Below, one piece after another: positions 4,305-57,588 of a stretch of DNA of 64,000 nt. Source of the stretch: Plantactinospora sp. BC1 (GTDB taxonomy: Bacteria; Actinomycetota; Actinomycetes; Mycobacteriales; Micromonosporaceae); the NCBI RefSeq assembly GCF_003030345.1, contig NZ_CP028158.1:4526001-4590000 (forward strand). The letters are read 5' to 3'. The translations under genes and the position numbers were made by a program. The first letter of the stretch is position 1; every line of letters starts with the position of its first letter. The notes under the pieces are model-generated. The model was not told the DNA's origin. It was given only the letters and a program-made list of their open reading frames with translations, and searched no databases.

Positions 4305-6680
4305 ATGATCCGGGAACGGGCCTATCCCGTCGAGCCGTGGCACGTCCGGGAGACCCGGCTCGACCTGGACGTACTCGCCCAGTCCGAGTCGGTGTTCGCA
4401 CTCTCGAACGGGCACATCGGGCTGCGCGGCAACCTGGACGAGGGCGAGCCGCACGGCCTGCCGGGGACGTACCTGAACTCCTTCTACGAGCTGCGGCCGC
4501 TGCCGTACGCGGAGGCGGGTTACGGCTTCCCCGAGTCGGGCCAGACGATCGTCAACGTCACCAACGGCAAGCCGATCCGGCTGCTCGTCGACGACGAGCC
4601 CTTCGACGTCCGGTACGGCGAACTGCTCAGCCACGAGCGGGTGCTCGACCTGCGCGCCGGCACCCTGCAACGGTCGGTCGAGTGGCGCTCCCCGGCCGGG
4701 CGTACGGTGCGGATCTGCTCGACCCGGCTGGTCTCGTTCACCCAGCGCTCCATCGCGGCGATCGAATACCGGGTGGAGCCGGTCGACGGGCCGATGCGGC
4801 TGATCGTCCAGTCGGAACTGGTCGCCAACGAGCAGCTTCCGGCGCAGAGCCGGGACCCCCGGGTGGCGGCGGTGCTGGAGTCGCCGTTGCAGTCCGAGGA
4901 GCAGTTGGTGCACAGCGACGGCGCGCTGCTGATCCACCGCACCAAGGCGAGCGGGCTGCGGGTGGCCGTCTCGATGAGCCACGAGGTGCACGGGCCGGAA
5001 CGCAAGCTCGTCGGCACCGAGGCGTACGAGGACTGGGCCCGGACCACCGTCACCTCGGTGATCAAGCCGGGTGAGCAGCTCCGGATCGTCAAGTTCGTCG
5101 CGTACGGCTGGTCGAGCCGCCGGTCCCGCCCGGCGCTGCGTGACCAGGTGGCGGCGGCGTTGGCCGGTGCGAAGTTCTCCGGCTGGGACGGGCTCTGCAC
5201 CGAGCAGCGCAGCTATCTCGACACCTTCTGGGACGACTCCGACGTGCGGGTCGAGGGCGACCCGGAGGTGCAGCAGGCGGTCCGGTTCGGACTCTTCCAC
5301 GTGCTACAGGCGGGCGCCCGGGCCGAGTTGCGGCCGATCGCGGCGAAGGGCCTGACCGGGCCGGGCTACGACGGGCACGCGTTCTGGGACACCGAGACCT
5401 TCGTACTCCCGGTGCTGACCTACACCCTGCCGTCGGCGGTCGCCTCCGCGCTGCGCTGGCGGCACTCCACCCTGCACCTGGCCCAGGAACGGGCCCGGAC
5501 GCTGGGCCTGCGCGGCGCCGCCTTCCCGTGGCGGACCATCCGGGGCCAGGAGACCTCGGCGTACTGGCCGGCCGGGACCGCCGGGTTCCACATCGCGGCC
5601 GACATCGCCGACGCGGTACGCCGGTACGTGCAGGCGACCGACGACGAGCAGTTCGAACGCGAGGTCGGGCTGGAACTGCTGGTGGAGACGGCGCGACTCT
5701 GGCGCTCGCTGGGGCACCACGACCGGCACGGCCGGTTCCACCTGGACGGGGTGACCGGGCCGGACGAGTACACGGCGGTGAAGAGCGACAACGTCTACAC
5801 CAACCTGATGGCCCAGCGGAACCTGCTGGCCGCCGCCGACGCCGCCGCCCGGCACGGCGAGGAGGCCTGGAAGCTCGGCGTCGACGACGAGGAGACCGCC
5901 GCCTGGCGGGACGCCGCGCGCGACATGCACGTCCCGTACGACCCGGAGCTGGGCGTGCACCCGCAGGTGGAGGGCTTCACCCGCTTCCAGGAGTGGGACT
6001 TCGCGAGCACCCCGCCGGAGCAGTACCCGCTGCTGCTCAACTACCCCTACTTCGACCTGTACCGCAAACAGGTGATCAAGCAGGCCGACCTGGTGCTGGC
6101 GATGCACTGGCGCGGCGACGCGTTCAGCGACGAGGAGAAGGCGGCGAACTTCGCCTACTACGAGCGGCGTACGGTCCGCGACTCGTCGTTGTCGGCGTGC
6201 ACCCAGGCGGTGCTGGCGGCCGAGACCGGGCACCTGGAGCTCGCGCACGACTATCTGGGCGAGGCGGCCCTGATGGACCTGCACGACCTCAACCAGAACA
6301 CCCGGGACGGCGTGCACGTCGCCTCCCTGGCCGGGGCGTGGATCGCCCTGGTGGCCGGGTTCGGCGGGATGCGCGACCACACCGCGACACTCTCCTTCGC
6401 ACCCCGGCTGCCGAGCCGGATCGACCGGCTGGAGTTCTCGCTCCGCTACCGGGGCGTGCACCTGCGGGTGGACGTCCGGCCGCGCGAGGCGACGTACGAG
6501 CTGCGCGACGGCGAGCCGGACGACGCCCTCGAACTGCTGCACCACGGGGAGAAGGTCCGGATCACCTGCCTGGAGCCGGTGACCCGGCCGATCCCGCCGG
6601 CCCGCCCGACGGGCCCGCAGCCCGCCCAACCGGCCGGCCGCGCCCCGGTCCGACGTACCCCGGAGAGCGAACCGACCTGA
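4305..6680 (+). CDS. Glycoside hydrolase family 65 disaccharide phosphorylase
   Basis: 791 aa; ATG with GAGGAGG just upstream. N-terminal beta-sandwich (~1-270), then the (alpha/alpha)6 barrel. The GH65 active-site region reads DGVTGPDEYTAVKSDNVYTN, with the conserved catalytic-acid Glu in GPDEY. HAFWDTETFVLP and the KQADLVLAM phosphate-site segment also match. It should cleave an alpha-glucosyl disaccharide (maltose, trehalose, kojibiose or nigerose) with phosphate, releasing beta-glucose-1-phosphate for the adjacent beta-PGM. The usual His after GPDEY is Thr here, so substrate cannot be assigned by eye. The C-terminus has a Pro-rich tail of ~30 residues. Confidence 0.92.
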   Translation: MIRERAYPVEPWHVRETRLDLDVLAQSESVFALSNGHIGLRGNLDEGEPHGLPGTYLNSFYELRPLPYAEAGYGFPESGQTIVNVTNGKPIRLLVDDEPFDVRYGELLSHERVLDLRAGTLQRSVEWRSPAGRTVRICSTRLVSFTQRSIAAIEYRVEPVDGPMRLIVQSELVANEQLPAQSRDPRVAAVLESPLQSEEQLVHSDGALLIHRTKASGLRVAVSMSHEVHGPERKLVGTEAYEDWARTTVTSVIKPGEQLRIVKFVAYGWSSRRSRPALRDQVAAALAGAKFSGWDGLCTEQRSYLDTFWDDSDVRVEGDPEVQQAVRFGLFHVLQAGARAELRPIAAKGLTGPGYDGHAFWDTETFVLPVLTYTLPSAVASALRWRHSTLHLAQERARTLGLRGAAFPWRTIRGQETSAYWPAGTAGFHIAADIADAVRRYVQATDDEQFEREVGLELLVETARLWRSLGHHDRHGRFHLDGVTGPDEYTAVKSDNVYTNLMAQRNLLAAADAAARHGEEAWKLGVDDEETAAWRDAARDMHVPYDPELGVHPQVEGFTRFQEWDFASTPPEQYPLLLNYPYFDLYRKQVIKQADLVLAMHWRGDAFSDEEKAANFAYYERRTVRDSSLSACTQAVLAAETGHLELAHDYLGEAALMDLHDLNQNTRDGVHVASLAGAWIALVAGFGGMRDHTATLSFAPRLPSRIDRLEFSLRYRGVHLRVDVRPREATYELRDGEPDDALELLHHGEKVRITCLEPVTRPIPPARPTGPQPAQPAGRAPVRRTPESEPT

Positions 6681-6703
6681 CCCTCCCGTCCCGACGGTCC
6701 GCT

Positions 6704-6728
6704 CGGCCGGGGGGTGTTCCCCCGGCCG
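6704..6728. terminator. Bidirectional hairpin between convergent genes
   Basis: Perfect 10-bp GC stem (6704-6713 with 6719-6728) and 5-nt loop, placed exactly between the ends of the GH65 gene and the convergent wall-hydrolase-like gene. It abuts the stop codon of the latter. Confidence 0.6.
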
Positions 6729-7757
6729 TCAGACCAGCGACAGGTGTACGTGGTTGGTGTGGTCGCTGGACGGGTCGCCGTGTGCGCCGCCGTACGACTT
6801 CCAGCCGATCGTCGGCAACCAGATCTGCCGGTACCAGATCACGTACAGCACCCCGATCCGGTCGGCGTTGCGGACGAAGAACGCGGCGAGGTTGTTGCCG
6901 TACGTCCGGTCGGCGCCGGTGGCGGCACCTCGGAAGCCACCCGCCTCGGCGGAGAAGTCGCAGGCCCGCCCCTTCGGGTGCTCGTACGGGCCGCCGGAGC
7001 GGTAGCAGCCGGTGAAGCGGCCGAAGCCGGCCCGGCGTGCCTCGGTGTAGGCGTGCAGGGTGCGTGGTGTGACGCAGCCCGTGGTGGTCGGGTCGGGCTG
7101 GCTGCACGACTGTGGTGGCCAGGAGCCGTCGGCGGCGCGTGGCGCGGGTCGGGCCACCGGCGAACTCGCGTTGACGAAGCCTCCGGTGGAGGCGCCGCCG
7201 ACCTGGGCCAGCGCCCGCTCGGCGGCCTGCTTCTGCCGCAGCATGATGGCGAGTTGGCGGCGCTCCTCGACCACCTCGGCGTCGAGCGCCTGCTTCGCCC
7301 GCGCGGCCCGCTCCCGGGCCTGGCCGAGTGCGCGCAGTACGTCGTTGTCCCGCAGCGCCACCGCCTCCAGGCCACGGGCGCGCTCCAGGAGTTCGTCGGC
7401 CGAGCCGCTGTGCAGCAGTACCAGCACCGGGCCGATCCGGCCGGTCTGGTACGCCGTCCGGGCCACCTGCTCCACCCGGGGCCGCAACTGCGCGATGCGT
7501 TCCTCGACCCGGCGTAGCTCGGCGACGATCTTCGCCTGTCGAGCTTTCGCGTTGGCCAGCGCGTTTCTGGCCTGTAGGTAACCTCGGCCGGTCGATTCGA
7601 GCACGTCCCGTAGGAGCGGGGTGTCGCCTTCGTCGCCGAGGACGGCGGGGCTGTTCGCCTCCGCCACGCCGGGCCGGAGTGCTGCCCCGGCGAGCGCGCC
7701 GAACGTGGCGAGCAGGGCCAGGGCCAGCGGAAACCGCCGACGTGTGGATCCCGTCAT
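6729..7757 (-). CDS. Secreted coiled-coil, peptidase-like cell-wall protein under c-di-AMP riboswitch
   Basis: 342 aa. Signal peptide ~1-34 (RRRFPLALALLATFGALAGAA, ending near VAEA). A long coiled coil at ~45-175 (KARQAKIVAELRRVEERI and similar) resembles PcsB/RipC-type N-domains that keep wall hydrolases inactive. The C-terminal ~130 residues carry HPKGRACDF and SDHTNHVHLS, the Zn-ligand-like spacing of the VanY/peptidase M15-related actinobacterial domain. It probably acts on or binds peptidoglycan outside the cell. Start ATG 7755-7757 has GGAGGG 6 nt upstream. That SD lies immediately after a c-di-AMP riboswitch, which in actinobacteria typically controls wall hydrolases and supports the role. 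Confidence 0.85.
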   Translation of the reverse strand: MTGSTRRRFPLALALLATFGALAGAALRPGVAEANSPAVLGDEGDTPLLRDVLESTGRGYLQARNALANAKARQAKIVAELRRVEERIAQLRPRVEQVARTAYQTGRIGPVLVLLHSGSADELLERARGLEAVALRDNDVLRALGQARERAARAKQALDAEVVEERRQLAIMLRQKQAAERALAQVGGASTGGFVNASSPVARPAPRAADGSWPPQSCSQPDPTTTGCVTPRTLHAYTEARRAGFGRFTGCYRSGGPYEHPKGRACDFSAEAGGFRGAATGADRTYGNNLAAFFVRNADRIGVLYVIWYRQIWLPTIGWKSYGGAHGDPSSDHTNHVHLSLV

Positions 7758-7767
7758 GCATGTCCCT

Positions 7768-7890
7768 CCGTCGCCCGCCTACCGAGTTAGCTGACGGGTT
7801 CGGGACGGAACAAGTCCCTACCGCGGTTGCGGACTCACCCCACCTACCTGGGTCCCCGGCTCACCCGAAAGTGATTCGGCGGCGGTCACG
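7768..7890 (-). ncRNA. ydaO-yuaA (cyclic di-AMP) riboswitch
   Basis: On the minus strand the leader shows the class's conserved blocks in order: GCCGAATC, GGTGAGCCGGGGACCCAGG, GGGGTGAGTCCGC, GGTAGGGA, CGAACCCGTCAGCTAAC and GGTAGGCG. The first and last blocks can pair (CCGCC with GGCGG) as P1. The regulated gene is a wall-hydrolase-like protein, the usual actinobacterial target. The SD (7764-7769) is only a few nt past the P1 3' strand, so ligand binding could act on translation as well as, or instead of, transcription termination. The class is known to turn genes off at high c-di-AMP. The exact 5' boundary is uncertain. Between here and 8163 I see only promoter-type sequence. Confidence 0.94.
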
Positions 7891-8163
7891 CCGGCGCGGA
7901 GGGGTGCGCCACCGGGCGAAACCGGGGTCAGCCTACCTGATCAACTGGGTCGAACAGGTGGATTTCGGAGTGATCCGCCGTGGAAATTGCTTCATGGGCG
8001 ACGTGCCGGTCGAGGCGCCGGGCAGCCCTCGGAGGCGGGGGCCGGTGTGGTGTCGGTCGAAGGATGTAGTCCGGTTTCCTCAACCGGCAGGAGGCTGGGG
8101 ATAGCGGGCCTGACTAGGCTTTTCGAAGATCCTCCCGCCCCTCTTCTCCAGCAGGGATCCTCG

Positions 8164-47803: not shown

Positions 47804-47876
47804 GCCCTCGTAGCTCAGGGGATAGAGCAACGGTTTCCTAAACCGTGTGTCGCAGGTTCGAATCCTGCCGGGGGCA
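47804..47876 (+). tRNA. tRNA-Arg (anticodon CCT)
   Basis: Acceptor GCCCTCG pairs with CGGGGGC (one G-U), discriminator A at 47876, CCA not encoded. D-arm GCTCAGGGGATAGAGC, anticodon arm ACGGTTTCCTAAACCGT with loop TTCCTAA, T-arm CGCAGGTTCGAATCCTGCC. All four arms fold. The following decayed integrase points to this 3' end as an integration site. Confidence 0.96.
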
Positions 47877-48101
47877 CCCCAAAGATCAGCGAAAACACCA
47901 TCTGACCAGCGGATACGTTCAGTGGTCGATGTGATCGCGTAGGCAGCCGTAGGCCGCTCCGAGCCGCCGTTTGTCGCCAGTCGTGCAGAGTACGTGCAAT
48001 GATCTTGGAGCCTTTCGGGCGCATGTTTGCGCAGCTCACAAGGCACAAAGGCGAGGAGGCCGCAGCATCGGCTACGGCCTCTCGAACCCTATCGGTGATC
48101 G

Positions 48102-49408
48102 TCACGCGGACAGCGCCGCCTCGATCCGCTCGTTCATCCGACTCCGGTCCCCGTCAATGCACTTCGCGTACACCCTGAGCAGCACGTCGACGGAATGACC
48201 CGCCCGCTCCGCGACCTCCGGAGCGGGTAGGCCCGCGTTCAGCCAGAGCGAGACTCCGGCATGCCGCAAGTCGTACGGCCGCCCCGCCAGCGGCGACGCC
48301 ACAAGGTCCGGTGGCAGGCTCAACGCCCGCGCCTCTTCCCAGACCCGGGAGTACGTCGAGGACGCCACCACGTTGCCCCGCTCACTGCGGAACAGCCGGC
48401 CATCCTTGCCGACGCCGAACCGTTCGATGTGCCACCGAAGGAGCCCGACCAGCTCCGGCGGAATCGGTACCTCCCGCGCTTCCGTCTCGCCCCGGTGTTT
48501 CAACCCGCGATCGTCGTGCACCTCACCGCTGTCGGTGTAGCGCTTGCCCGCCGCCGGACGGGACTTCTCCACCGTCAGCAGACCCCAACCCGACTCGGGC
48601 AGGTGGCAGTCCCGCTCCCGCAGGCCCAGCGCCTCACTCGGCCGCAGCGCCGCAAAGTACAGGCAGGCGTAGAAAGCGCGTAGCCGCTCACCTCGCCGCC
48701 CGTCTCTGCCGCGCCGGCCGACGTACGTCACTGCGGTCAACAGTTCCCGCGCCTGGCCGACGTTGACCACCACCCGCCGATCGACCTCCGCCGTCACCTT
48801 TCGCCGAGCCGACCGTACGCGCGCCGCCTGGTCGTCGTCGCGGCTGCTGGCCGCCCATCCATCCGGAGCCCGAGCGCGTCCAGGGCCGGCCGGATCACCG
48901 AGGCTTCCGCCAGGGACGGCAGTGGACGCGATGCCTTGCCAAGCCAGCGCAGCGCGGCGATGACCTCCGTCGGTTGGTCGAGTTGCCGAGCGGCCGGCGG
49001 TAGCTCGTACTCCCGAAGCGCCCGACGCAGCAGCGCCGCATCGGGACGGCCGGGCAGGTCCTGGATGAGCAGCCCGGTCACGGCCGCGAGCGCGTCTGTC
49101 ATGCTTTCCCGCGATTTCGCGGCGGCACCCGGCCATTTCATGTCGACGTACCGCCGTACGAAGGCAAGCCAGGTCACCGACTCCTGTGGCGGCACCATCG
49201 AACCGGGCAACCCGGTATCGGTGTCGAACGCCTCGCCACGGTTGACGGCCTGCATCAGGTCCGAGCGGAAGTTATCCGCCAGAGCACGAGTGCCGAAGGT
49301 CCGAGACTTTGGCTCCGTGCCCACAACCCACCGGACGGTGTACGACTTCTTGCGCTTGGCCAGGGTGTTGACCTGGATACCGCGAATCCGTACCTCGCGC
49401 GACTTCAC
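48102..49408 (-). pseudogene. Tyrosine integrase of AICE type, frameshifted and internally deleted
   Basis: The N-terminal part (49408-48794, GTG start) reads KSREVRIRGIQVNTLAKRKKSYTVRW through the core-binding domain up to TTTRRRAYGRLGER, then stops. The catalytic part continues in another frame from RRKVTAEVDRRVVVN, including LYFAALRPSEALGLR, HAGVSLWLNAGLPAPEVAERAGHSVDVLLRVYAK (catalytic Arg, H-x-x-R-like, Tyr). Compared with related integrases from memory, ~20-30 residues between the two parts are missing, so this is a deletion plus frameshift, not just one miscalled base. Integration and excision are probably lost. Confidence 0.85.
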
Positions 49409-49590
49409 GCCGCCTCCCGGTGCTGGTCCAGCCAGGCTCGCAGGTCACGCCGCTTGATCCGTAGCTCACCGTTTGGCAGCTTGATGCACTCCGGTGCGAC
49501 GCCCAGCTCACGCCACCGGTAAAAGGTTCGCCGCGATACACCGTTGAGCGCGGCGAGAACCTGAGGAACGGTCAACAGGTCGTTGTCCAT
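49405..49590 (-). CDS. xis: Excisionase-like HTH protein
   Basis: 61 aa: LTVPQVLAALNGVSRRTFYRWRELGVAPECIKLPNGELRIKRRDLRAWLDQH, a MerR-superfamily excisionase HTH (AlpA/Xis). Its stop overlaps the integrase GTG by 4 nt, the standard xis-int coupling of actinomycete integrative elements. The gene itself looks intact even though the integrase is broken. Confidence 0.9.
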   Translation of the reverse strand: MDNDLLTVPQVLAALNGVSRRTFYRWRELGVAPECIKLPNGELRIKRRDLRAWLDQHREAA

Positions 49591-49611
49591 AGGGGTGGTT
49601 TCCTCCAGGAG

Positions 49612-50580
49612 TCAGGCTGCGGGGACGAAAGTCTGTGCGGTTGCCGAAACATCGCCGGACGCCCGTTGCCGGGCGGTGTCGAGGTCTGTTCGCCAGCGGA
49701 TGCGGGCTGAGATGGCGCGCAGGATGCGGTGTTCGAGGGGTAGGACGTCGGGGTCTTCGGGGCGTGCGAGTTCGAACCGGTACCGCTGCGGGTTGTCGGC
49801 CGTTGTCTGGTCCTGGCCGTGTCCGTCGCCCTGGTCTCCGTCGGCCGGATCGGTGTCGGCCATGCCACCAGCGAGGATGGCGCGAATCCAGGCCCGGTTG
49901 TCCGCCCGGTGATCGGCGAGGGTCTTGCCGGACCACTGCCGGGAGACGAGAACCCGCCGGCCGGTGAAGCCGAGCGTGGAGCGTTGGTGGACCTTCCCGG
50001 TACAGCGGCCGGGGGTCAAGCCTGCCTTGACCCCGTCAGGCTGGACGCCGTAGAGGAGCCAGTTGGCGCAGGTGGGCGAGCAGGGCAGGACGGAGAGTTC
50101 GGCGTGGAGCCGGTCGAAGTGCGCCTTCTGCGCGTCGGAGCGTGGTCGGGCCTGGTCGGTCAGGTCCTTGGTGACGTACTTCGTGACGTAGCGGATTGAC
50201 CGTTCCGCGTCGCGGGTGCCCTGCTCGATGCCGCGTGCGTCGATCCGGCCGAGCCGGGCGACGTATGCCGGTCGGGCGGCGGGTTTCTCCAGCTCGTCCA
50301 GGGCGTGCGACCACGGGGTCAGCGGCTCGCGTGTCTTGGGGTCGACGTACGCCTGTTGCTCGACATCCCACACGGGCGGTTTGTCGACGGTGTAGCACGG
50401 TTCGTTGAACGCTGGCCACCACACTTGGTGGTAGGTCGCGGCGGCGATCTGCTTGAGTAGCCGCCTCGGGAGGGTGCCCCGGATGGCGAAGTGTGCGTGT
50501 GGCGCGAGCCGGCGTTGTAGCTCGACTGCTCCGGCGTATTGGACGTTCCAGCTGTAGTGACCATGAGCGTTGTTGACGGC
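49612..50580 (-). pseudogene. repSA: RepSA replication initiator, 5' truncated
   Basis: About 320 residues of the C-terminal part remain: HYSWNVQYAGAVELQRRLAPHAHFAIRG, RRLLKQIAAATYHQVWWPAF, RSIRYVTKYVTKDL, CSPTCANWLLYGVQPDGVKAGLTPGRCTGKVHQRSTLGFTGRRVLVSRQWSGKTLADHRADNR. This is the AICE initiator. Intact proteins have ~100 or more residues before HYSW. Here the frame runs into insertion-sequence DNA at ~50571-50580 and has no proper start, so replication function is lost. Confidence 0.85.
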
Positions 50581-50677
50581 GTGTCGGCTTGATCGATGGA
50601 GAGACCTCCGGCGAGGTGTGAGGTGCTGACGCCCATACCTACCGGAGGTCTCTATGGCCCACCGTAACGCCCGGCTG
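50571..50677 (+). mobile_element. End of an IS481-type insertion sequence, transposase start only
   Basis: From TGTTGACGGCGTGTCGG (50571, likely terminal repeat) to MAHRNARL, the first eight codons of an IS481-family transposase at 50654, after which similarity to the family pattern stops. A perfect 12-bp inverted repeat (50600-50611 and 50642-50653) precedes the ATG; its right arm contains the SD GGAGGT, so the start could be masked in readthrough RNA. The element inserted into repSA and later lost its body. Confidence 0.75.
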
Positions 50678-50830
50678 GAAAGTGGCCCCCTCGTCCCTGT
50701 GTCGGGCCACCCTCTCGTGGATGTGGGGCGACCCTCTGTGCTCCACGGGGGGGGTGGTGTTGACGGGGGGGCGGGTGTGGGCCGGGGGGGGGTGGGGTGG
50801 GGTGGCGGGATGTCCGCAAGCGCCGCTGAC

Positions 50831-50932
50831 CCGCGGACGTCGCACCGTTTCCGGGAAGGAGTGGCTTCCCGACCCCGCGAAGCCACTCCTTCCCGGAATT
50901 GGCGTCCCCCCCGCATCGTGGCGGGAGGTCAG
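50831..50932. repeat. 102-bp hairpin repeat, copy A
   Basis: Direct copy of 56104-56205: equal length, 94 of 102 positions identical. Core is a perfect 20-bp stem (TTCCGGGAAGGAGTGGCTTC with its complement) around CCGACCCCGC. Flanks begin CCGCGGACGTCGCA and end ATCGTGGCGGGAGGTCAG in both copies. Its right end overlaps the DUF1801 stop codon. Between the IS fragment and this copy (50678-50830) lies G-run-rich DNA without a gene. Confidence 0.9.
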
Positions 50933-51381
50933 GTGGTGGCGCGTTTCACGAGGGCGCTGATGCGGGTCTCTACGTCGGGGGTTAGGGCGGTCAGGGCGAA
51001 GGCGGTGGGCCAGATCGGGCCCTCGTCCAGGTTTGCCTGGTCGCTGAAGCCGAGCGTCGCGTAGCGGGTCTTGAACTTGGCGGCGGGCTGGAAGTGGCAG
51101 ACGATCTTGCCGTCAAGGGTGTAGGCGGGCATCCCGTACCAGAGCTTCGAGGCGAGCGCGGGGGCGCTGGCGGTGACGATCGCATGGACACGTTCGGCCA
51201 TGATCCGGTCGGAATCCTGCATCTCGGCGATCTTCGAGAGCACGTCCCGCTCCGCCTCCGCCGCCTTGTCCGCCCGGGAGCCACGGCGCGCTGCCTTCTT
51301 CTGCTCTTGGGCGTGTTCCTTCATCGCGGCGCGCTCTTCGGCGGTGAAACCCTGGTAAGTCCTGTTGCCGTCGCTACTCAT
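50929..51381 (-). CDS. DUF1801/YdhG-like protein
   Basis: 150 aa from ATG 51381 (AGGAAG 8 nt upstream; GTG 51390 less likely). N-terminal helix very rich in Lys/Glu/Ala (TAEERAAMKEHAQEQKKAARR), then the DUF1801 core: APALASKLWYGMPAYTLDGKIVCHFQPAAKFKTRYATLGFSDQANLD. Bacillus YdhG is described as an iron chaperone, but DUF1801 members are otherwise uncharacterised. First of three minus-strand genes in the accessory module. Confidence 0.88.
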   Translation of the reverse strand: MSSDGNRTYQGFTAEERAAMKEHAQEQKKAARRGSRADKAAEAERDVLSKIAEMQDSDRIMAERVHAIVTASAPALASKLWYGMPAYTLDGKIVCHFQPAAKFKTRYATLGFSDQANLDEGPIWPTAFALTALTPDVETRISALVKRATT

Positions 51382-51393
51382 GGTTGACACTTC

Positions 51394-52059
51394 CTATCGC
51401 TCGGTACGAAAGCCAAGATCGGCAGTGTTGGCCTGGCCGTACTGTTCGTACGAGGTGGAGACGGCCTCCCACTGGAAACCGTCCGGGTCGGCGAAGGTGC
51501 CGGCACTGCTGCCGATGACGAGGCGGTGTGATCCGGTGCCGTCGGGGGAGACGCCTGCGTCCTTGGCGGCGGCACGGCGGCCGTAGAGGGCCAGCCTGAT
51601 GCCCGAGGTGGCAAACTCGACGTACTTGCGACCGAAGCTTCTGGCCACGGGCAGGCCGCGCTCGACATAGCAGCGCTTGGTCGCGGCGACGTCGGCCACG
51701 CCCAGCAGCAGGACGATATCGTCGACGTGTCGGCTGGCCGGGCCGGTGTTCTTCTTCGACGACGAAGCGATCTTCCAGATCGTGCCGTACGGGTCACGTA
51801 GCACCCCGCCGTAGCCCCAGAAACTCTTCGCGGCCGGCTTCAGTGCTGTCGCTCCGCGTTCGACGGCGGTGTCGAAGTAGCTGTCCACAGTGTTCGGCTG
51901 GGACACCACCAGCGACATGGCGAACCCGCGAAAGCCGGTCGTGGGTGCCTGCGAGGCGCGTACCCGCACTCGGGCGCCCAGGTCGAAAGCCCCGGAGTAG
52001 AAGGCATTGGCGGCGACGGGGTCGGGTACTTCGAGCGTGACAAACTCGATGGAGGACAT
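51394..52059 (-). CDS. Two-domain VOC-fold protein
   Basis: 221 aa. Two VOC halves: EFVTLEVPDPVAANAFYSGAFDLGARVRV ... GYGGVLRDPYGTIWKIA and HVDDIVLLLGVADVAATKRCYVERGLPVARSF ... TFADPDGFQWEAVS. Each half has a DPxG strand as in glyoxalase/extradiol dioxygenase folds, though metal ligands are not clearly conserved. 12 bp upstream of the DUF1801 gene; likely co-transcribed. Confidence 0.88.
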   Translation of the reverse strand: MSSIEFVTLEVPDPVAANAFYSGAFDLGARVRVRASQAPTTGFRGFAMSLVVSQPNTVDSYFDTAVERGATALKPAAKSFWGYGGVLRDPYGTIWKIASSSKKNTGPASRHVDDIVLLLGVADVAATKRCYVERGLPVARSFGRKYVEFATSGIRLALYGRRAAAKDAGVSPDGTGSHRLVIGSSAGTFADPDGFQWEAVSTSYEQYGQANTADLGFRTER

Positions 52060-52118
52060 GGCAGGGCCTTTCCATAACGGGGCGGTTCAGGCAGAAGAGC
52101 AGTTCAGGTGGAGTACGT

Positions 52119-52472
52119 TCAGTCCTGGATCAGTCCCAGGACGTTGCCGTCCGGGTCGGTGACGGTGGCGACGGTGCGGCCGCCACCGACGTCGTGCGCG
52201 GGCTCGGTCACGGTGGCGCCTGCGGCGGTCAGTTCGGCGAGTTTCGCCTCGATGTCCGGTACGTGCCAGTAGGCCACCGGCGAGGTCATGCCCTGTGGGC
52301 CACCGCCCGGCACCAGCCCGATGTGCTGACCCCCGGTGTCGAAGCCGACATAGTAGGACGAGTCACTCGTCGGCGGCACGCCGAGCAGAGCCGCGTACAC
52401 CGCCTTGGCCTTCGCCAGGTCCGACACCGGATGCAGCACGGTCTTGACTCCCTGGGTGGCAGAACCGGCCAT
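52119..52472 (-). CDS. Glyoxalase-like VOC protein
   Basis: 117 aa, ATG with AAGGAG 7 nt upstream. GVKTVLHPVSDLAKAKAVYAALLGVPPTSD, YYVGFDTGGQHIGLVPGG, YWHVPDIEAKLAELTAAGATVTEPAHDVGGGRTVATVTDPDGNVLGLIQD: a canonical single-domain VOC. Begins the minus-strand run divergent from the LuxR/NB-ARC regulator, which probably controls it. Confidence 0.9.
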   Translation of the reverse strand: MAGSATQGVKTVLHPVSDLAKAKAVYAALLGVPPTSDSSYYVGFDTGGQHIGLVPGGGPQGMTSPVAYWHVPDIEAKLAELTAAGATVTEPAHDVGGGRTVATVTDPDGNVLGLIQD

Positions 52473-52624
52473 GGTTACTCCTTCGATCGCTGGTCGCGGG
52501 CCACCGTCGGCCCGGTCGGTTCGGGTACGCAGACAGCGTCTCCGCCGGCACGTCCGGTGCGGATCCGTGCTGACCACGGAGCGGCCACGGAATCGGCACA
52601 CGGAGGGGCTGACAGAATGGGGCA

Positions 52625-55564
52625 ATGGTTGACATCTCGACTCGGGAAGCCGAGGTGCTCGCGTTGGTCGGCGAGCACCTCAGCAACGCCGAGATCGGGG
52701 CCCGGCTGTTCATCTCGGTGCGTACCGTGGAGACCCACGTCTCGTCGCTGCTGCGCAAGCTGGAGGTCCCGGATCGGCGTGCGCTCGCCCAGCGGGTGCC
52801 TGAGGAGGCCGTCGCCGGCCCGGCCCAGCCGGTACCGGTCCTGCCGGCCCCGCTGACCTCGTTCGTCGGTCGGGTGCGCGAGCGGACCGAACTGACCGAG
52901 CTGATCAAGGCGCACCGTCAGGTGACCGCGGTCGGCCCTGGTGGCGTGGGCAAGACCCGGCTCGCGCTGGCGGTGGCCTCGGAAGCCGCTGGCGAGTACC
53001 CCGACGGGGTATGGTTCGTCGACCTGGTCCCGGTCGCCGATCCTGGCATGATCGCGACTGCCGTCGCCGGGGCGCTCGGCCTCGGCGAGCAGCCCGGCCG
53101 GGACATGACCGGGTCCGTCGTTGCCGCGTTGGCCGGCCATCACGCGTTGCTGGTCCTGGACAACTGCGAGCACGTACTGGACGGGGTGGCGCCGCTGCTC
53201 GAGCGGCTGTTGGCAGCGTGCCCCGGGGTGACGGTGTTGGCGACCAGCCGGGCCCGGCTGATGGTGCCGTTCGAGCGGGTGTACCAGGTGCCACCGCTGT
53301 CGCTGGCTGTCGACGGTGGATCGGACGCGATCGCGTTGTTCATGGAGCGGGCGGCGGCGGTGGGCTGGCCGCTGGATCCGCCACTGCGCGAGCAGGTCGC
53401 CTCGATCTGCGAGCGTCTGGACGGCATGGCGCTGGCGATCGAGCTGGCCGCCGCTCGGTATCCCACGCTCGGGCTGGACGGCATCACCACCGCGCTGTCC
53501 CATCCGCTCCGGATGCTGACCGGCGGATCCCGGGCCGATGAGCGGCACCGTTCGGTGCGGGCGGTACTGGACTGGAGCCACGCCCTGCTGGAGCCGGCCG
53601 ATCGGGTGCTACTGCGCCGGGTGTCGGTGTTCGTGGCACCATTCACCGCGCAGGCGGCGGCGGAGGTCACCGGAGCCGAGCACGTAGCGGAGGGCGCCGG
53701 GTTCGAGGGCGCGGCGGAGGGCGCCGGAGCCGAGTACGCGGCGGAGGGCGCCAGGTTCGAGGGCGCAGGGGAGGGCGCAGGGGCCGAGGAGGGTCTTGTC
53801 GCCGAGGGGCTGGCGCGGCTCGCCGAACAGAGCCTGCTGGTGGTGACGGCCTCCCCGGGCGGCACCCGGTACCGGGCGCTGGAGACCATCCGCCAGTACG
53901 GGACGGAGCGGCTCACCGAGGCCGGTGAGCTGGTTGACGCCCGGTCCCGGCACCTGCGCTGGTGCTTGGCCAAGGCCGCTGGGCTGACGGAGACGGGGGC
54001 GGACTGGCGGGTCCGCTTCGACGCGGTGGCCGACGACCTCCGTGCCGCCCTCGCCTGGGCGGCCGACCGGGCAGAGCAGCGCGCGGACGCCTGTCGCCTC
54101 GCCCGGTTCCTGGCAGAGCTGACCTTCACGCGTCACCTGACCGCCGAGTCCCAGCAGCGCTACGAGCAGGCGGCCGCGCTCGCCGACGACCCCGCGGTCA
54201 CCGCGTCGATGTACCGGCAGGCCGCGGCCGTGGCCGGCTGCCGGACGATCGGTGACGACATGTACCGGCTGCGGCGCGCTGCCGCCGACGCCGCCGGTCG
54301 GGCCGGTGACACCGCTGGCGCGGCGGGTGACCTGGCGACCGCCGCCACCATCGCCTACCGCTTCTCGAGCAAGTTCGTGCGGATCCCGTCCCCGGCGGAG
54401 GCGCTCGCGCTGCTCACCGAGGCGCGACAGCTGGCCGGCGACGACCCGGCCGCGCAGGCCGCGGTCTCATTGGCCGAGGCGGGAGTGCTCTCCGACGCGT
54501 TCGGTGCCGCCCAGGGCCCGCCGGACAACGCCGTACCGGAGACGATCGCGCGCGCCGAGCGGGCGGTCGAACTCGCCCGCCGGACCGGCGACCCGCTCGC
54601 CGAGTCGGCCGCACTCGACGCACTCACCGCCGCGCACAGCTGGGCCGGTGACACCTTGGCGGTCGCGGCCACGGCCCGGCGCCGGATCATGCTGCTCTCC
54701 GACACACCGGATACCCCGGCTGGTACCCACGAGCTGATCGACGCACTCGGCATGGTCACCGAGACGGGCCTCGGCGCCGGGGACGTGCCGGGCGCCCGGC
54801 GGTGGGCACGGGAACTGGCCGGCCATCCGGCGCTGGCCGAGGTCGGGCACCTCGCCACGTACCGGCTGCTGATGGTGGAGGCACTGGCCGGCAACGCCGC
54901 CGAGGTGCTGACCGGCAGTGTCCGGTTCCTCGACGGGTGGCGGCGGTCGGGCAGTCCGGCCCTGCCGGGCCTCGCTCCGGCGGCGGCCGGGGTGGCGATG
55001 ATCCACGGCCTGCGCGCCGACCAGGAGGCGAGGGGCGAGTGGCAGGAGATCCTGGACCAGTTCGGCACCTCGGCGGGCGGGCGTACCTACGGCTACGGGG
55101 CGGTCTTCGACGCGATGCTCCTGCTGCACCAGGGGCAGGCGCCGGAGGCGCTGGAGCGGGTGGCACCCGAGCCCGGCGAGGTGTGGAAGTGGGTCACCTG
55201 GATCTGGCTCCACTGGTACGTCGCACTGCGCGCCGAGGCCGCCGTACTCGCCGCGAGCCCTGACGCTCGCGACCGCCTGGCGGAGGCCCGGACCATCGTG
55301 GCCGGCAATCCGGTGGCCGATGCCATGGTGGCACGGGCCGAAGCCCTGCTGGACGGCGACCGGGCGGCACTGCTCGGCACGGCAGCGGCCTTCGAGGTGG
55401 CCGGCTGCCGCTACCAGTCCGGCCGGACTCTGCTGCTGGCCGGCGGCGCCGATGCCGAGCGCGGGGCGGCCGTGCTCCGCGAGCTTGGGCTCGCCCCGAC
55501 GGGCAGCGAGCCTGGGGTCGCCCCGATGGGCAGCGGCGTCGACGGGCTGGTTCGGCCCGGGTGA
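52625..55564 (+). CDS. N-terminal LuxR HTH fused to NB-ARC ATPase and TPR-like domain
   Basis: 979 aa from ATG. LuxR HTH lies at the N-terminus (STREAEVLALVGEHLSNAEIGARLFISVRTVETHVSSLLRKLEV, residues ~5-55), opposite to most LuxR/LAL proteins. ATPase: Walker A VGPGGVGKTRLA (~104) and Walker B HALLVLDNCEHVLD (~175). ~560-960: helical repeats. Between the ATPase and the repeats are two 18-residue tandem units rich in Glu/Gly/Ala (GAEHVAEGAGFEGA...). Expected to be an ATP-gated activator of the divergent VOC/DUF1801 genes and perhaps RidA. Confidence 0.92.
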   Translation: MVDISTREAEVLALVGEHLSNAEIGARLFISVRTVETHVSSLLRKLEVPDRRALAQRVPEEAVAGPAQPVPVLPAPLTSFVGRVRERTELTELIKAHRQVTAVGPGGVGKTRLALAVASEAAGEYPDGVWFVDLVPVADPGMIATAVAGALGLGEQPGRDMTGSVVAALAGHHALLVLDNCEHVLDGVAPLLERLLAACPGVTVLATSRARLMVPFERVYQVPPLSLAVDGGSDAIALFMERAAAVGWPLDPPLREQVASICERLDGMALAIELAAARYPTLGLDGITTALSHPLRMLTGGSRADERHRSVRAVLDWSHALLEPADRVLLRRVSVFVAPFTAQAAAEVTGAEHVAEGAGFEGAAEGAGAEYAAEGARFEGAGEGAGAEEGLVAEGLARLAEQSLLVVTASPGGTRYRALETIRQYGTERLTEAGELVDARSRHLRWCLAKAAGLTETGADWRVRFDAVADDLRAALAWAADRAEQRADACRLARFLAELTFTRHLTAESQQRYEQAAALADDPAVTASMYRQAAAVAGCRTIGDDMYRLRRAAADAAGRAGDTAGAAGDLATAATIAYRFSSKFVRIPSPAEALALLTEARQLAGDDPAAQAAVSLAEAGVLSDAFGAAQGPPDNAVPETIARAERAVELARRTGDPLAESAALDALTAAHSWAGDTLAVAATARRRIMLLSDTPDTPAGTHELIDALGMVTETGLGAGDVPGARRWARELAGHPALAEVGHLATYRLLMVEALAGNAAEVLTGSVRFLDGWRRSGSPALPGLAPAAAGVAMIHGLRADQEARGEWQEILDQFGTSAGGRTYGYGAVFDAMLLLHQGQAPEALERVAPEPGEVWKWVTWIWLHWYVALRAEAAVLAASPDARDRLAEARTIVAGNPVADAMVARAEALLDGDRAALLGTAAAFEVAGCRYQSGRTLLLAGGADAERGAAVLRELGLAPTGSEPGVAPMGSGVDGLVRPG
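53673..53780 (+). repeat. 54-bp tandem repeat inside regulator gene
   Basis: GAGCCGAG at 53673 and 53727 starts two 54-bp units, and a partial third follows. Encodes 18-residue E/G/A-rich repeats at ~350-388 of the regulator; likely a flexible spacer. Confidence 0.75.
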
Positions 55565-55697
55565 TAACTCGGGCTCGCGAATGCGGGCGGTCGGCTGGAA
55601 TACATGACGCAGGGTGTCGTGATTGGTTGGCAGGCTCGTCGACACGTGGGGAGCCGTTCCTGGCGTGCCCACACCTGCGAAAGAGCTGAGGCTGACA

Positions 55698-56093
55698 ATG
55701 GATCGAACGGCGGTCAACCCGTGGGCCTGGTCGGTGGAGTTGGGGTACAACCAGGGCGAGGTCGTCTCCGGGCACACCCGGACGCTGTACTGCGCCGGGC
55801 AGGCCGCGATGGGTGGCGACGGCCGACCCCGGCATGCCGGTGACCTGGCGGCGCAGTTGGCGCTGAGCCTCGACAACCTGGAAGCCGTACTCGCCGGGGC
55901 CGAGATGTCCCTCGCGAACCTCGTCCGGCTCAACGTCTACACCACCGACGTCGACGGGCTCTTCGCGCACTACGGCGTGCTGGCGTCGCGGCTGGGTGCC
56001 GCCGGGGTGGCACCGCCGACCACGATGCTCGGGGTGACCCGGCTTGCGATCCCCGACCTGATGGTCGAACTTGAGGGGACCGCCGTCGCGTGA
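55698..56093 (+). CDS. RidA-family protein
   Basis: 131 aa from ATG 55698; 25 in-frame residues upstream look non-coding. RTLYCAGQAAMGGDGRPRHAGDLAAQLALSLDNLEAVLAGAEMSLANLVRLNVYTTDVDGLFAHY and PPTTMLGVTRLAIPDLMVELEGTAVA are the YjgF/YER057c/UK114 pattern. The canonical RidA catalytic Arg (in NVKRATVY-type segment) is replaced in the form NLVRLNVYTTD with Arg two residues off, so imine deaminase activity is not certain. Last gene before repeat copy B. Confidence 0.87.
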   Translation: MDRTAVNPWAWSVELGYNQGEVVSGHTRTLYCAGQAAMGGDGRPRHAGDLAAQLALSLDNLEAVLAGAEMSLANLVRLNVYTTDVDGLFAHYGVLASRLGAAGVAPPTTMLGVTRLAIPDLMVELEGTAVA

Positions 56094-56103
56094 CGGCAGC
56101 CGG

Positions 56104-56205
56104 CCGCGGACGTCGCACAGATTCCGGGAAAGAGTGGCTTCCTGACCCCGCGAAGCCACTCTTTCCCGGGATTAGCGTCCCCCGCGCATCGTGGCGGGAG
56201 GTCAG
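56104..56205. repeat. 102-bp hairpin repeat, copy B
   Basis: Direct repeat of copy A (50831-50932). The stem change G to A in the left arm (GGAAAGAG) is matched by C to T in the right arm (CTCTTTCC), keeping the base pair; one further change gives a G-U. It starts 11 bp after the RidA stop and ends 13 bp before the methyltransferase stop. Confidence 0.9.
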
Positions 56206-56217
56206 CCCCGTTTACGC

Positions 56218-57390
56218 TTACCGTGCCCGCAGGACGACGATCTCCGGGTGGGTGCCGGAGAGGCTGATCGGGTACCGCTGCCGCAGGGCCAGCCCGGTCG
56301 CCTCCACATCGGGTAACTGGCCGTCCACGTCGGAGAGCAGCAGCACCGCGCGGCCGTTCGGGCGTAGCACCCGGCGCAGCTCCGTCCAGAACCGCCGCTG
56401 TTGCCCGGCCAGGATGCCGGCGAACGGCACCTGCCGGTCCCACGGCGGGTTGGTGAGCACCAGGTCGACGGCGTCGTCCGACAGTGGGATCCGGCCGGCG
56501 TCCGCGACCACCCAGCCGACCGGTGTGTCCCGGCCGTTGCCGGCGGCGATCGCGACGACGGCCCGGTCGATGTCACTGCCCACGATGGACAGACTCCGAC
56601 CGGAGAGAGCCGCCTCGACCGGTATCGTCCCGGCACCGCAGCAGGGATCGAGGAGCCGGTCGCCGTCCCGCGCCCCGACGAGCCGGACCAGCGCGGCGGC
56701 GACCGGCGGATGCAGGCTGCCCGGCCGGGACATCCGACGGTACGCGCGGCGGTGCAGCGGCCGGTCCGCGATCCGCAGCGCCACCAGCGCCCGGTCGTCG
56801 ACGAGGGTGACCCGCCAGGAGAGTCCGCCGGGCGGTGGCGCGACCCCGCCCCGTCGGCTGTGGTACGGCAGCCCGAGCGCGGCGGCGATCGGCTCGCCGA
56901 CCGCGTCCTCCAGATCGAACCGGGTGAAGTTGCGCCGCCCCAGGAACGACGCGGAGACGTCGATCCCGGACAGCGGTGCCCACTCGTCCGTGCCGGACAG
57001 TGGTGCCGAGCCGTCCGTGCCGGACAGTGGTGCCGAGCCGTCTGTCCCGGAAAGCCGGCGGTCGCGCATGCTGGAGGTCGGTTGTCGGGCAGCGCCACGG
57101 CAGCGGCGCCACCGGGTCAGCAACTCCCGCAGCGGCAACGTCGACGCGGCCTTGCCCAGCATCCGCAGATCGGCCCGGCTGCGGCCGATTCCGTACACGG
57201 CCGTGCCGACCAGGAAGATGTCGTCGGCGCAGCGCAGATCCAGTACCTCCGGACCGGGATCAACGCTGTCGAACCACACCTCACGGTGTGCGACCGCACT
57301 GACCCGGCCCACTTGAAGTGTTGCTATCTCGTCGGCCACCACCGGCTCGATGCCCCGCACCGTCCGCGCCACCAGGCGCGCGGCCGTCAC
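56218..57390 (-). CDS. THUMP-domain RNA methyltransferase (Trm14/RlmL-like)
   Basis: 390 aa from GTG 57390 (no clear SD). N-terminal THUMP-like part (RTVRGIEPVVADEIATLQV ... LDLRCADDIFLVG). C-terminal methyltransferase: LLDPCCGAGTIPVEAA (AdoMet loop), VGSDIDRAVV and catalytic DLVLTNPPWDRQVPF (NPPW, N2-guanine type). Should methylate guanine N2 in tRNA or rRNA. Three tandem 9-residue LSGTDGSAP-type repeats (DNA unit 27 bp, 56966-57046) interrupt the segment between the domains. Confidence 0.88.
   Translation of the reverse strand: MTAARLVARTVRGIEPVVADEIATLQVGRVSAVAHREVWFDSVDPGPEVLDLRCADDIFLVGTAVYGIGRSRADLRMLGKAASTLPLRELLTRWRRCRGAARQPTSSMRDRRLSGTDGSAPLSGTDGSAPLSGTDEWAPLSGIDVSASFLGRRNFTRFDLEDAVGEPIAAALGLPYHSRRGGVAPPPGGLSWRVTLVDDRALVALRIADRPLHRRAYRRMSRPGSLHPPVAAALVRLVGARDGDRLLDPCCGAGTIPVEAALSGRSLSIVGSDIDRAVVAIAAGNGRDTPVGWVVADAGRIPLSDDAVDLVLTNPPWDRQVPFAGILAGQQRRFWTELRRVLRPNGRAVLLLSDVDGQLPDVEATGLALRQRYPISLSGTHPEIVVLRAR
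56966..57046 (-). repeat. Three 27-bp tandem repeats within methyltransferase gene
   Basis: Units at 56966, 56993 and 57020 each start CCGGACAG on the plus strand. They keep frame and encode a Ser/Thr/Asp/Pro-rich nonapeptide between the THUMP and catalytic domains. Confidence 0.85.
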
Positions 57391-57450
57391 GACGTGACGA
57401 CGGTGCCAGGACGCGGTGTGGCCCCGGCGCGAGTACGCGCCGGCAACCGA

Positions 57451-57466
57451 AAGATCATTCGATCTT
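57451..57466. promoter_or_regulatory. AAGATC-ATTC-GATCTT dyad
   Basis: Perfect 6-bp arms in a short AT-enriched stretch 61 bp upstream of the methyltransferase start. Could be an operator or a weak hairpin; no regulator adjoins. Confidence 0.35.
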
Positions 57467-57588
57467 CTCCCACGTCGCGACTCGGGGCGACGCGTCGCCG
57501 CCCCGCATCGCTGGCGAGGGGTTGTCCGCAACCCGCCAGCGGTCGCGTCAGGCGAGGAAGAAGAAGTTCATGGCCTGGAGGATAGCGA

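Follow-up and report, generated by a model that had tools for sequence, protein, structure and literature searches.

A 64,000-nt window of the genome of Plantactinospora sp. BC1 (contig NZ_CP028158.1, positions 4,526,001 to 4,590,000) carries two 102-nt palindromes, copy A (50831..50932, + strand) and copy B (56104..56205, + strand), which bracket a 5.3-kb block of genes. These copies are ordinary members of an unusual family that is spread in the manner of repetitive extragenic palindromes (REPs), lacks a REP-associated tyrosine transposase (RAYT) and is tied in position to genes of the DUF559 family. Members of the family are dispersed at gene 3' ends and have a covarying stem, matched pairs of them surround part of the DUF559 genes, and some sites have a single palindrome and no gene. 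From the comparison of sequences, we consider it somewhat probable that A and B represent a REP-like palindrome family linked to a DUF559 nuclease, which would make this a REPtron-like element without RAYT.

The first-pass annotation of this DNA had described two direct 102-bp hairpin copies with 8 differences, and alignment of A with B agrees: both are 102 nt long, they lie in direct orientation, and they share 94 identical positions, leaving exactly 8 differences. The stem of copy A is 20 bp (50849-50868/50879-50898) and that of copy B is 18 bp (56124-56141/56152-56169), each with zero mismatches. The compensatory G-C to A-T change that had been reported in the 20-bp stem is present at 50858/50889, and at 50846/50901 a C/G pair is replaced by A/A, so that pairing is lost. 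Folded as RNA, the + strand of copy A reached -66.1 kcal/mol (z -6.6) and that of copy B -61.2 kcal/mol (z -6.4), values that none of 200 shuffles equalled; for the - strands, z was -6.6 (0 of 200 shuffles as good) and -3.8 (1 of 200). A BLAST check of the copy number of the unit, proposed in the same annotation, found A and B as the only full-length copies in the whole 8.33-Mb genome (E 1.7e-47 and 1.2e-36); the remaining match was that of the hairpin to its own complement. Covariance models revealed additional sites. The alignment score between A and B is 86, whereas the top score of A or B against any palindrome of the related genome G006 is 49, suggesting that one copy was probably made from the other after the split from the G006 lineage.

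In the family unit, an imperfect palindrome of ~90 nt that varies little in length, a 35-bp stem closes an 11-nt loop. The consensus has AAGATC...GATCTT at its foot and GTAG within the arm; the outer stem, GATCGYGC...GCRCGATC, also pairs, though it lies largely outside the pairs of the first model. That model (R1), a covariance model built from 13 hairpins and reported at E up to 1, found 10 distinct sites in the BC1 genome (G000), 8 of them outside the window, 16 in G006 and 21 each in G002 and G003. G004 and G001 each yielded one weak or doubtful site, and G005 yielded none. Scoring covered 150 of the 4466-6748 candidates in each genome, so the larger counts are minimum values, and the weakest matches are perhaps due to chance. 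A pattern scan of species genomes returned at least 120 stretches, with 117 from Micromonospora and 3 from Plantactinospora among the matches listed. Viral contigs contained no stretch matching the pattern, and carriage by viruses was rejected as an explanation. A second model (R2; 71 sequences, 35 pairs), with 39 candidates scored per genome, matched 23 of the 111 genomes examined in the bacterial family at E 1e-5, spread over 10 of 42 genera. The palindromes are found in Plantactinospora and Micromonospora, and their distribution in other Micromonosporaceae is patchy. One Micromonospora genome had 4 sites per 400 sampled kb, which extrapolates to ~70 per genome; 400 sampled kb of the BC1 genome held one clear, already known site and one weak, shorter site. 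The family had at one stage seemed rare, when a narrow first pattern gave matches in 5 of 200 genomes (in G071 with a different sequence), but the wider pattern and the models overturned this view. No description of the family was found among the open-licence papers listed, in which strings from the core sequence matched only seemingly unrelated titles.

Copies sit at gene 3' ends, about half of them between convergent genes. Among 66 of the 69 sites taken from the genus (20 of the 21 sites of G002, without C22, were taken; G001_C29, G003_C44 and G003_C10 were left out of the count), 32 were convergent, 30 tandem and 1 divergent, with 1 inside a predicted gene and 2 at an edge, compared to 37 convergent, 203 tandem and 97 divergent among the other gaps of at least 80 nt in the same loci. 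The 92 sites in the Micromonospora loci of the pattern scan were 42 convergent, 35 tandem, 3 divergent and 12 at an edge, against 23, 112 and 89 convergent, tandem and divergent gaps, respectively, elsewhere in these loci. The convergent excess gave Fisher p values of 8e-12 for the genus and 8e-14 for the pattern-scan loci. For these counts genes were called with a custom codon-usage script rather than an annotation pipeline. The median distance from the element to the adjacent gene 3' end was 24 nt (212 gene ends), and for the 64 tandem sites the start of the downstream gene lay a median of 123.5 nt away. Copy B begins 10 nt past the RidA stop codon, with the convergent RidA and methyltransferase genes on either side. 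The family model match for copy A spans 50830-50918, and an 86-nt model match of this copy stops 13 nt short of the DUF1801 3' end.

Pairing in the stem was assessed in an alignment of 65 of the 69 genus sites (A2; G004_3082 was left out along with the three sites named above). In these copies 72% of cells were paired, compared to 43-48% with slid partners, and the covariation score was 0.230 relative to 0.175 for shuffles and at most 0.122 for slid partners. An alignment of 71 copies from both genera (A3; 36 of 79 pattern-scan sites and 35 genus sites) was 77% paired and scored 0.249, relative to 0.153 for shuffles and at most 0.108 for slid partners. Runs of four or more T residues were present within 20 nt of the element at 0 of 130 ends (65 copies). 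G-U and A-C mismatches occurred in similar numbers, 124 and 113 at tandem, one-sided sites and 136 and 118 at convergent ones, which lends no support to maintenance as RNA. No Rfam match was found at A or B; at gathering scores, the window yielded only a c-di-AMP riboswitch (7761-7891, minus strand, 85.4 bits) and a tRNA. A terminator scan reported neither A nor B, although its loop and T-run limits would miss such hairpins. The annotation had listed structured RNA ends among its options, and the T-run and mismatch counts do not support that option.

The link to DUF559 comes from several Micromonospora loci and G006, in which one gene lies between two palindromes ~1.1 kb apart. The N-terminal part of its protein is AbiEi-like (best PADLOC matches of 3e-12 to 4e-9 for the four proteins tested), and the C-terminal part is DUF559. 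The G006 gene scored 21.7 bits against the Pfam DUF559 cut-off of 20.6, and three Micromonospora proteins fell slightly under it (16.1-19.9 bits). Residues E230, D262, E273, G276 and H279 were invariant in 22 of 22 aligned proteins, and we infer that these form a PD-(D/E)XK-like active site. The top PDB profile match of the DUF559 protein was weak (3r3p, 'Mobile intron protein', E 0.028); we take this entry to be I-Bth0305I, a Vsr-type homing endonuclease. The predicted structure of the DUF559 protein was too poor for use (mean predicted local distance difference test score, pLDDT, of 47.5). A DUF559 protein in Caulobacter is termed Vsr-like in PMC12907096. No literature linking DUF559 to palindromes was found among open-licence papers, for which the top results were taken in broader queries.

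To avoid circularity, DUF559 loci were chosen by protein similarity alone. Model R2 placed palindromes on both sides of the gene in 7 of 38 loci (L281, L291, L292, L294, L297, L300 and L306), from adjacent to ~460 nt off, the second palindrome being 320-460 nt away in L292 and L297. A further 7 of the 38 had an R2 palindrome, often a weak one, on one side only (L282, L295, L301, L305, L307, L310 and L312). By a generic inverted-repeat measure, a strong palindrome was present on at least one side of 28 of 38 DUF559 genes compared to 38 of 200 controls, and on both sides of 8 of 38 compared to 0 of 200. The test for two palindromes similar to each other used 47 loci, a subset of the matches made up of the 36 best and 11 further copies picked blind to their flanks (L282 and L304, at contig ends, were left out), and 397 control genes from which the G006 DUF559 gene was excluded. 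Mutually similar palindromes stood on both sides at 13 of the 47 DUF559 loci and at none of the 397 controls. Grouping by shared flanking DNA reduced 59 loci to 27 clusters; 25 of these hold a tested locus, and the 13 paired loci fall in 7.

Other DUF559 lineages are bracketed by palindromes that differ markedly in sequence. These are of the ACCTGGAC type at L283, L284, L285, L287 and L288, and of further kinds at L300/L301/L330, L323, L325, L326 and L327. L285 is the BC1 paralogue, near 6.011 Mb, in which the DUF559 gene lies between 53-nt palindromes (ACCTGGAC...GTCCAGGT) at 1282-1334 and 2437-2489 of the locus; similar palindromes flank its relatives in G002, G003, G004 and G006. Outside the bacterial family, one search gave 7 loci, and matched palindromes, here too of a sequence that varies with the DUF559 lineage, were present in 3 of these (Tsukamurella L335 and L336, Arthrobacter L340). 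Tsukamurella L337 and Arthrobacter L339 had a weaker inverted-repeat pair, with scores of 42 and 38 relative to a maximum of 46 in 200 controls, although L337 scored 55 in wider flanks. Arthrobacter L341 had a palindrome on one side, and Nonomuraea L338 had none beside its DUF559 gene. The first-pass annotation had proposed REP- or MITE-like repeats (miniature inverted-repeat transposable elements), an idea that holds for the dispersal, the species-variable copy number and the covarying pairs but not for the companion, which is a DUF559 nuclease and not a RAYT.

One junction, between a DUF2344-like gene and fecB, was found with and without the nuclease gene. The order palindrome-DUF559-palindrome is present there in L123, L129, L134, L174, L190, L191, L221 and L291 (G069), and also in L125 and L203, for which one neighbour gene is beyond the contig end. 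L294 (G053) has a gene only ~50% identical, in opposite orientation, at the same junction. In L230 (Micromonospora sp. ATA32) and L233 (M. chokoriensis) the junction has a single palindrome and no DUF559 gene. When empty sites were aligned with filled ones, the single palindrome matched both palindromes of the filled site, with an overlap of 71-74 nt, in 4 of 14 comparisons (L233 with L123, L129 and L221; L230 with L129).

The block between A and B contains a DUF1801 gene (50929..51390, - strand; 24.4 bits against a cut-off of 27.2) whose 3' end is inside the final bases of copy A, two glyoxalase/VOC genes (51394..52059 and 52119..52472, both - strand; the longest open reading frame of the second is 52119-52625), a LuxR-type regulator with an AAA/NB-ARC-like domain (52625..55564, + strand) and a RidA-family gene (55623..56093, + strand). 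Profile matches bear out the labels first given to these genes, the DUF1801 and AAA matches being slightly below their Pfam cut-offs. In-frame tandem repeats of 27 bp occupy 53652-53786 of the regulator gene, and the G006 ortholog has other repeats there. Beyond copy B is an RlmKL/UPF0020-type methyltransferase gene (56218..57531, - strand), whose ortholog is in the vicinity of Ppx in G002 and G003 and, with the block in between, in G006. The order in G006 is methyltransferase, palindrome, LuxR, VOC, VOC, DUF1801, palindrome, DUF559, palindrome and Ppx, so that palindromes occupy both block junctions at the positions of A and B; this orthologous 20-kb stretch contains nothing that matches the RidA gene. 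The methyltransferase and Ppx genes are close neighbours in G002 and G003, separated by other small genes and an unrelated hairpin, and the block was not found within the 20-kb orthologous stretches. By this comparison, the block and its two palindromes predate the split from G006, yet are not genus-wide at that place.

In the BC1 genome, Ppx is at 7.61 Mb with a family palindrome 22 nt past its stop codon, 3 Mb away from A and B at 4.58 Mb. The DUF559 neighbour seen in G006 is gone, and copy A adjoins an unrelated element remnant. Judged from these arrangements, gene order has changed between copy A and the Ppx palindrome, where G006 has DUF559. The L054 locus has, at 4838-6830, Ppx, a palindrome, an aspartyl-tRNA synthetase-like gene and a lipA-like sequence; the lipA-like side matches G002 just past another family palindrome (L081), which hints at rearrangement between palindromes. 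Excision of the 5.3-kb block by recombination, as the annotation had envisaged, was not borne out, in that no relative examined has a precise loss of 50933-56205 and the corresponding place in G002 and G003 holds other genes and an unrelated hairpin. Loss between repeats does fit the separate Micromonospora locus at which L230 and L233 keep one palindrome.

How a nuclease might spread palindromes can be sketched as follows. The DUF559 protein would recognise and cut its cognate palindrome, or the hairpin or cruciform that it forms. Repair of the break may then copy the palindrome, or the whole palindrome-gene-palindrome unit, to new intergenic sites, and pairing of two palindromes could delete the DNA between them. 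Copies would persist mainly at 3' ends since insertion is least harmful there, and a side role as terminator or mRNA end is conceivable. In its full form, this becomes the tentative proposal of a selfish element of an undescribed class in Actinobacteria, in which a stand-alone AbiEi-DUF559 nuclease gene sits between its own palindromes, the nuclease would break cognate palindromes, repair would spread the palindrome or the unit, and each lineage would have its own sequence. There is a real chance that the family is a separate class of element.

Several results weigh against a nuclease-driven family. The paired signature was absent, at the threshold used, from 34 of the 47 DUF559 loci, and paired palindromes vary in their relative orientation, being inverted at 12 of 21 loci and direct or tied at 9. 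The BC1 genome and G003 are rich in palindromes, yet their only DUF559 genes are distant paralogues (43-44%) that adjoin another kind of palindrome. G072 is also palindrome-rich and has no DUF559 match at E 1e-30, and G165, G058, G037, G077 and G075 have a fairly close DUF559 gene and no family match (R2, E 1e-5). G165 has two distinct DUF559 copies that are 92% alike, with homology about confined to the gene, beside different palindromes, a misfit with a unit that always moves together with its palindromes. (Of the DUF559 records in the G165 loci L319-L321, two lie at contig ends and are the same over 3875 nt, and the remaining copy is 92% alike.) One of the other palindrome kinds was not dispersed in a 464-kb sample of the BC1 genome.

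The covariation and the empty sites are also open to objection. Because the patterns or models used to gather the copies favour pairing, the inner stem was partly selected for. Further copies had been suggested as a check on covariation, and although the scores exceeded those of shuffles and slid partners, pairs changed on both sides were only slightly more frequent than in shuffles: 27 compared to 23.9 in the 65 copies (reached by 31 of 500 shuffles) and 25 compared to 22.5 in the 71 copies (reached by 28 of 500). At the DUF2344-like/fecB junction, the flanking alignments stop short of each other over the palindrome in 10 of the 14 empty-filled comparisons. A tree of the two neighbour genes places L230 and L233 among the filled sites, with supports for the nodes involved of 0.895 for L230 and 0.253, 0.984 and 0.999 around L233. 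Nested in this way, the empty sites look like losses and do not demonstrate insertion; loss of the gene, for example by recombination between the palindromes, seems likelier than insertion. No insertion with clean ends or a target-site duplication was established, and no mobilisation event was seen.

The 3'-end position and the stable stem could also be explained if the palindromes were bidirectional terminators or mRNA 3'-end hairpins of the actinobacterial kind, which have a strong stem but lack a T-run. Gene conversion would have homogenised them, and the DUF559 link would be incidental or due to terminators around accessory genes. We consider this unlikely. Strong enrichment between convergent genes and proximity to stop codons favour it, and the methyltransferase 3' end of G002 and G003 has its unrelated hairpin in the same place. 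A shared 90-nt sequence and near-fixed loop length across genera, however, are not required of terminators; there is no T-run at any element end and no clear excess of G-U over A-C, the scan, within its limits, reported neither copy, and palindrome pairs occur around DUF559 genes and around none of the control genes. A canonical Rho-independent terminator was rejected, as TTTT was absent within 20 nt of all 130 ends and the scan, within its limits, predicted none at either copy. It is very improbable that the palindromes are a structured non-coding RNA or riboswitch-like element: the stable fold and the covariation would suit it, but the element is a single hairpin, palindromic on both strands and located at 3' ends, with no Rfam match and no clear wobble asymmetry.

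The nature of the companion gene allows two other accounts. The AbiEi-like domain, matched in the N-terminal part of the protein, might bind the palindromes as operators, so that the DUF559 gene is autorepressed from its flanks and dispersed copies are regulated or decoy sites. Lineage-specific palindromes beside DUF559 lineages are in keeping with this idea, which we nevertheless regard as quite improbable: the palindromes are at 3' ends, with only 1 of 66 and 3 of 92 sites flanked by divergent genes, and autoregulation needs no second copy downstream of the gene. That these are ordinary REP or REPIN elements moved by a RAYT is barely credible. The layout is alike, with dispersed palindromes and a gene flanked by two, but no Y1_Tnp domain (PF01797) was found in the four palindrome-rich genus genomes (G000, G002, G003 and G006), for which RAYT mobilisation is thus largely refuted. 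Among the 7 genus genomes Y1_Tnp is matched only in G001, which has a single chance-level match to the family, and the unit is ~90 nt long rather than 20-40. Integron attC sites were rejected, the RYYYAAC and GTTRRRY cores being both present in 0 of 65 copies.

We return to the REP-like family linked to DUF559, which can be compared to known systems. REPtrons are described in PMC3733652 as dispersed intergenic palindromes of species-variable copy number with a gene flanked by two of them. The present family is likewise dispersed, intergenic and multi-copy, with a DUF559 gene flanked by two copies at the paired loci; unlike REP/RAYT systems it has no RAYT or Y1 transposase, and the gene encodes a PD-(D/E)XK nuclease of the DUF559 family. 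A REP is a 20-40-bp hairpin ending in GTAG or CGTC, whereas GTAG lies inside the arms of this longer unit. TIRtrons, in the same paper (PMC3733652), have a gene enclosed by two related repeats. The family resembles these and MITEs in its short repeats, which contain no gene themselves, and in the gene that related copies enclose. It differs in that each end is a complete palindrome, no transposase was seen and the recurrent enclosed gene is DUF559. The similarity to homing endonucleases of the Vsr or I-Bth0305I type lies in the weak C-terminal profile match to 3r3p and in the Vsr-like description of the Caulobacter protein; the DUF559 gene, in contrast, is stand-alone and intergenic between palindromes rather than within an intron, and has an AbiEi-like N-terminal part. 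Actinobacterial intrinsic terminators of the GeSTer or I-shaped kind are strong hairpins without a T-run at gene 3' ends and between convergent genes. Unlike these, the family shares a long sequence and nearly fixed geometry, and its pairs enclose one gene family.

As context, the window contains the remnant of a pSAM2-type integrated element (47879..50610, - strand), which flanks copy A on its outer side. The region 47804-50610 comprises tRNA-Arg(CCT) followed by this decayed integrative element, with an integrase over two frames, an excisionase-like open reading frame and the C-terminal part of RepSA, matched only from profile position 185 onward. The window holds no second att copy (tRNA 3' end) of the element. 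With the tRNA 3' end unduplicated in the window and most of the family sites in the BC1 genome outside it, the end of an actinomycete integrative and conjugative element was rejected as the identity of the palindromes. An 11-bp inverted repeat (GAGACCTCCGG/CCGGAGGTCTC) at 50601-50651, at the broken 5' end of the rep gene, is possibly an insertion scar. Between the rep remnant and copy A, 50741-50812 is very G-rich with several G runs.

The DUF559 genes match only a Pfam family of unknown function, and the lineage-specific palindromes beside them offer a direct, testable target for their protein. The palindromes also mark changes of gene order, such as that between copy A and the Ppx palindrome. 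If the nuclease does spread the palindromes, this would be a second, independently evolved REP-like system, in which a PD-(D/E)XK enzyme replaces the HUH transposase, and it would account for dispersed palindromes in genomes free of RAYT.

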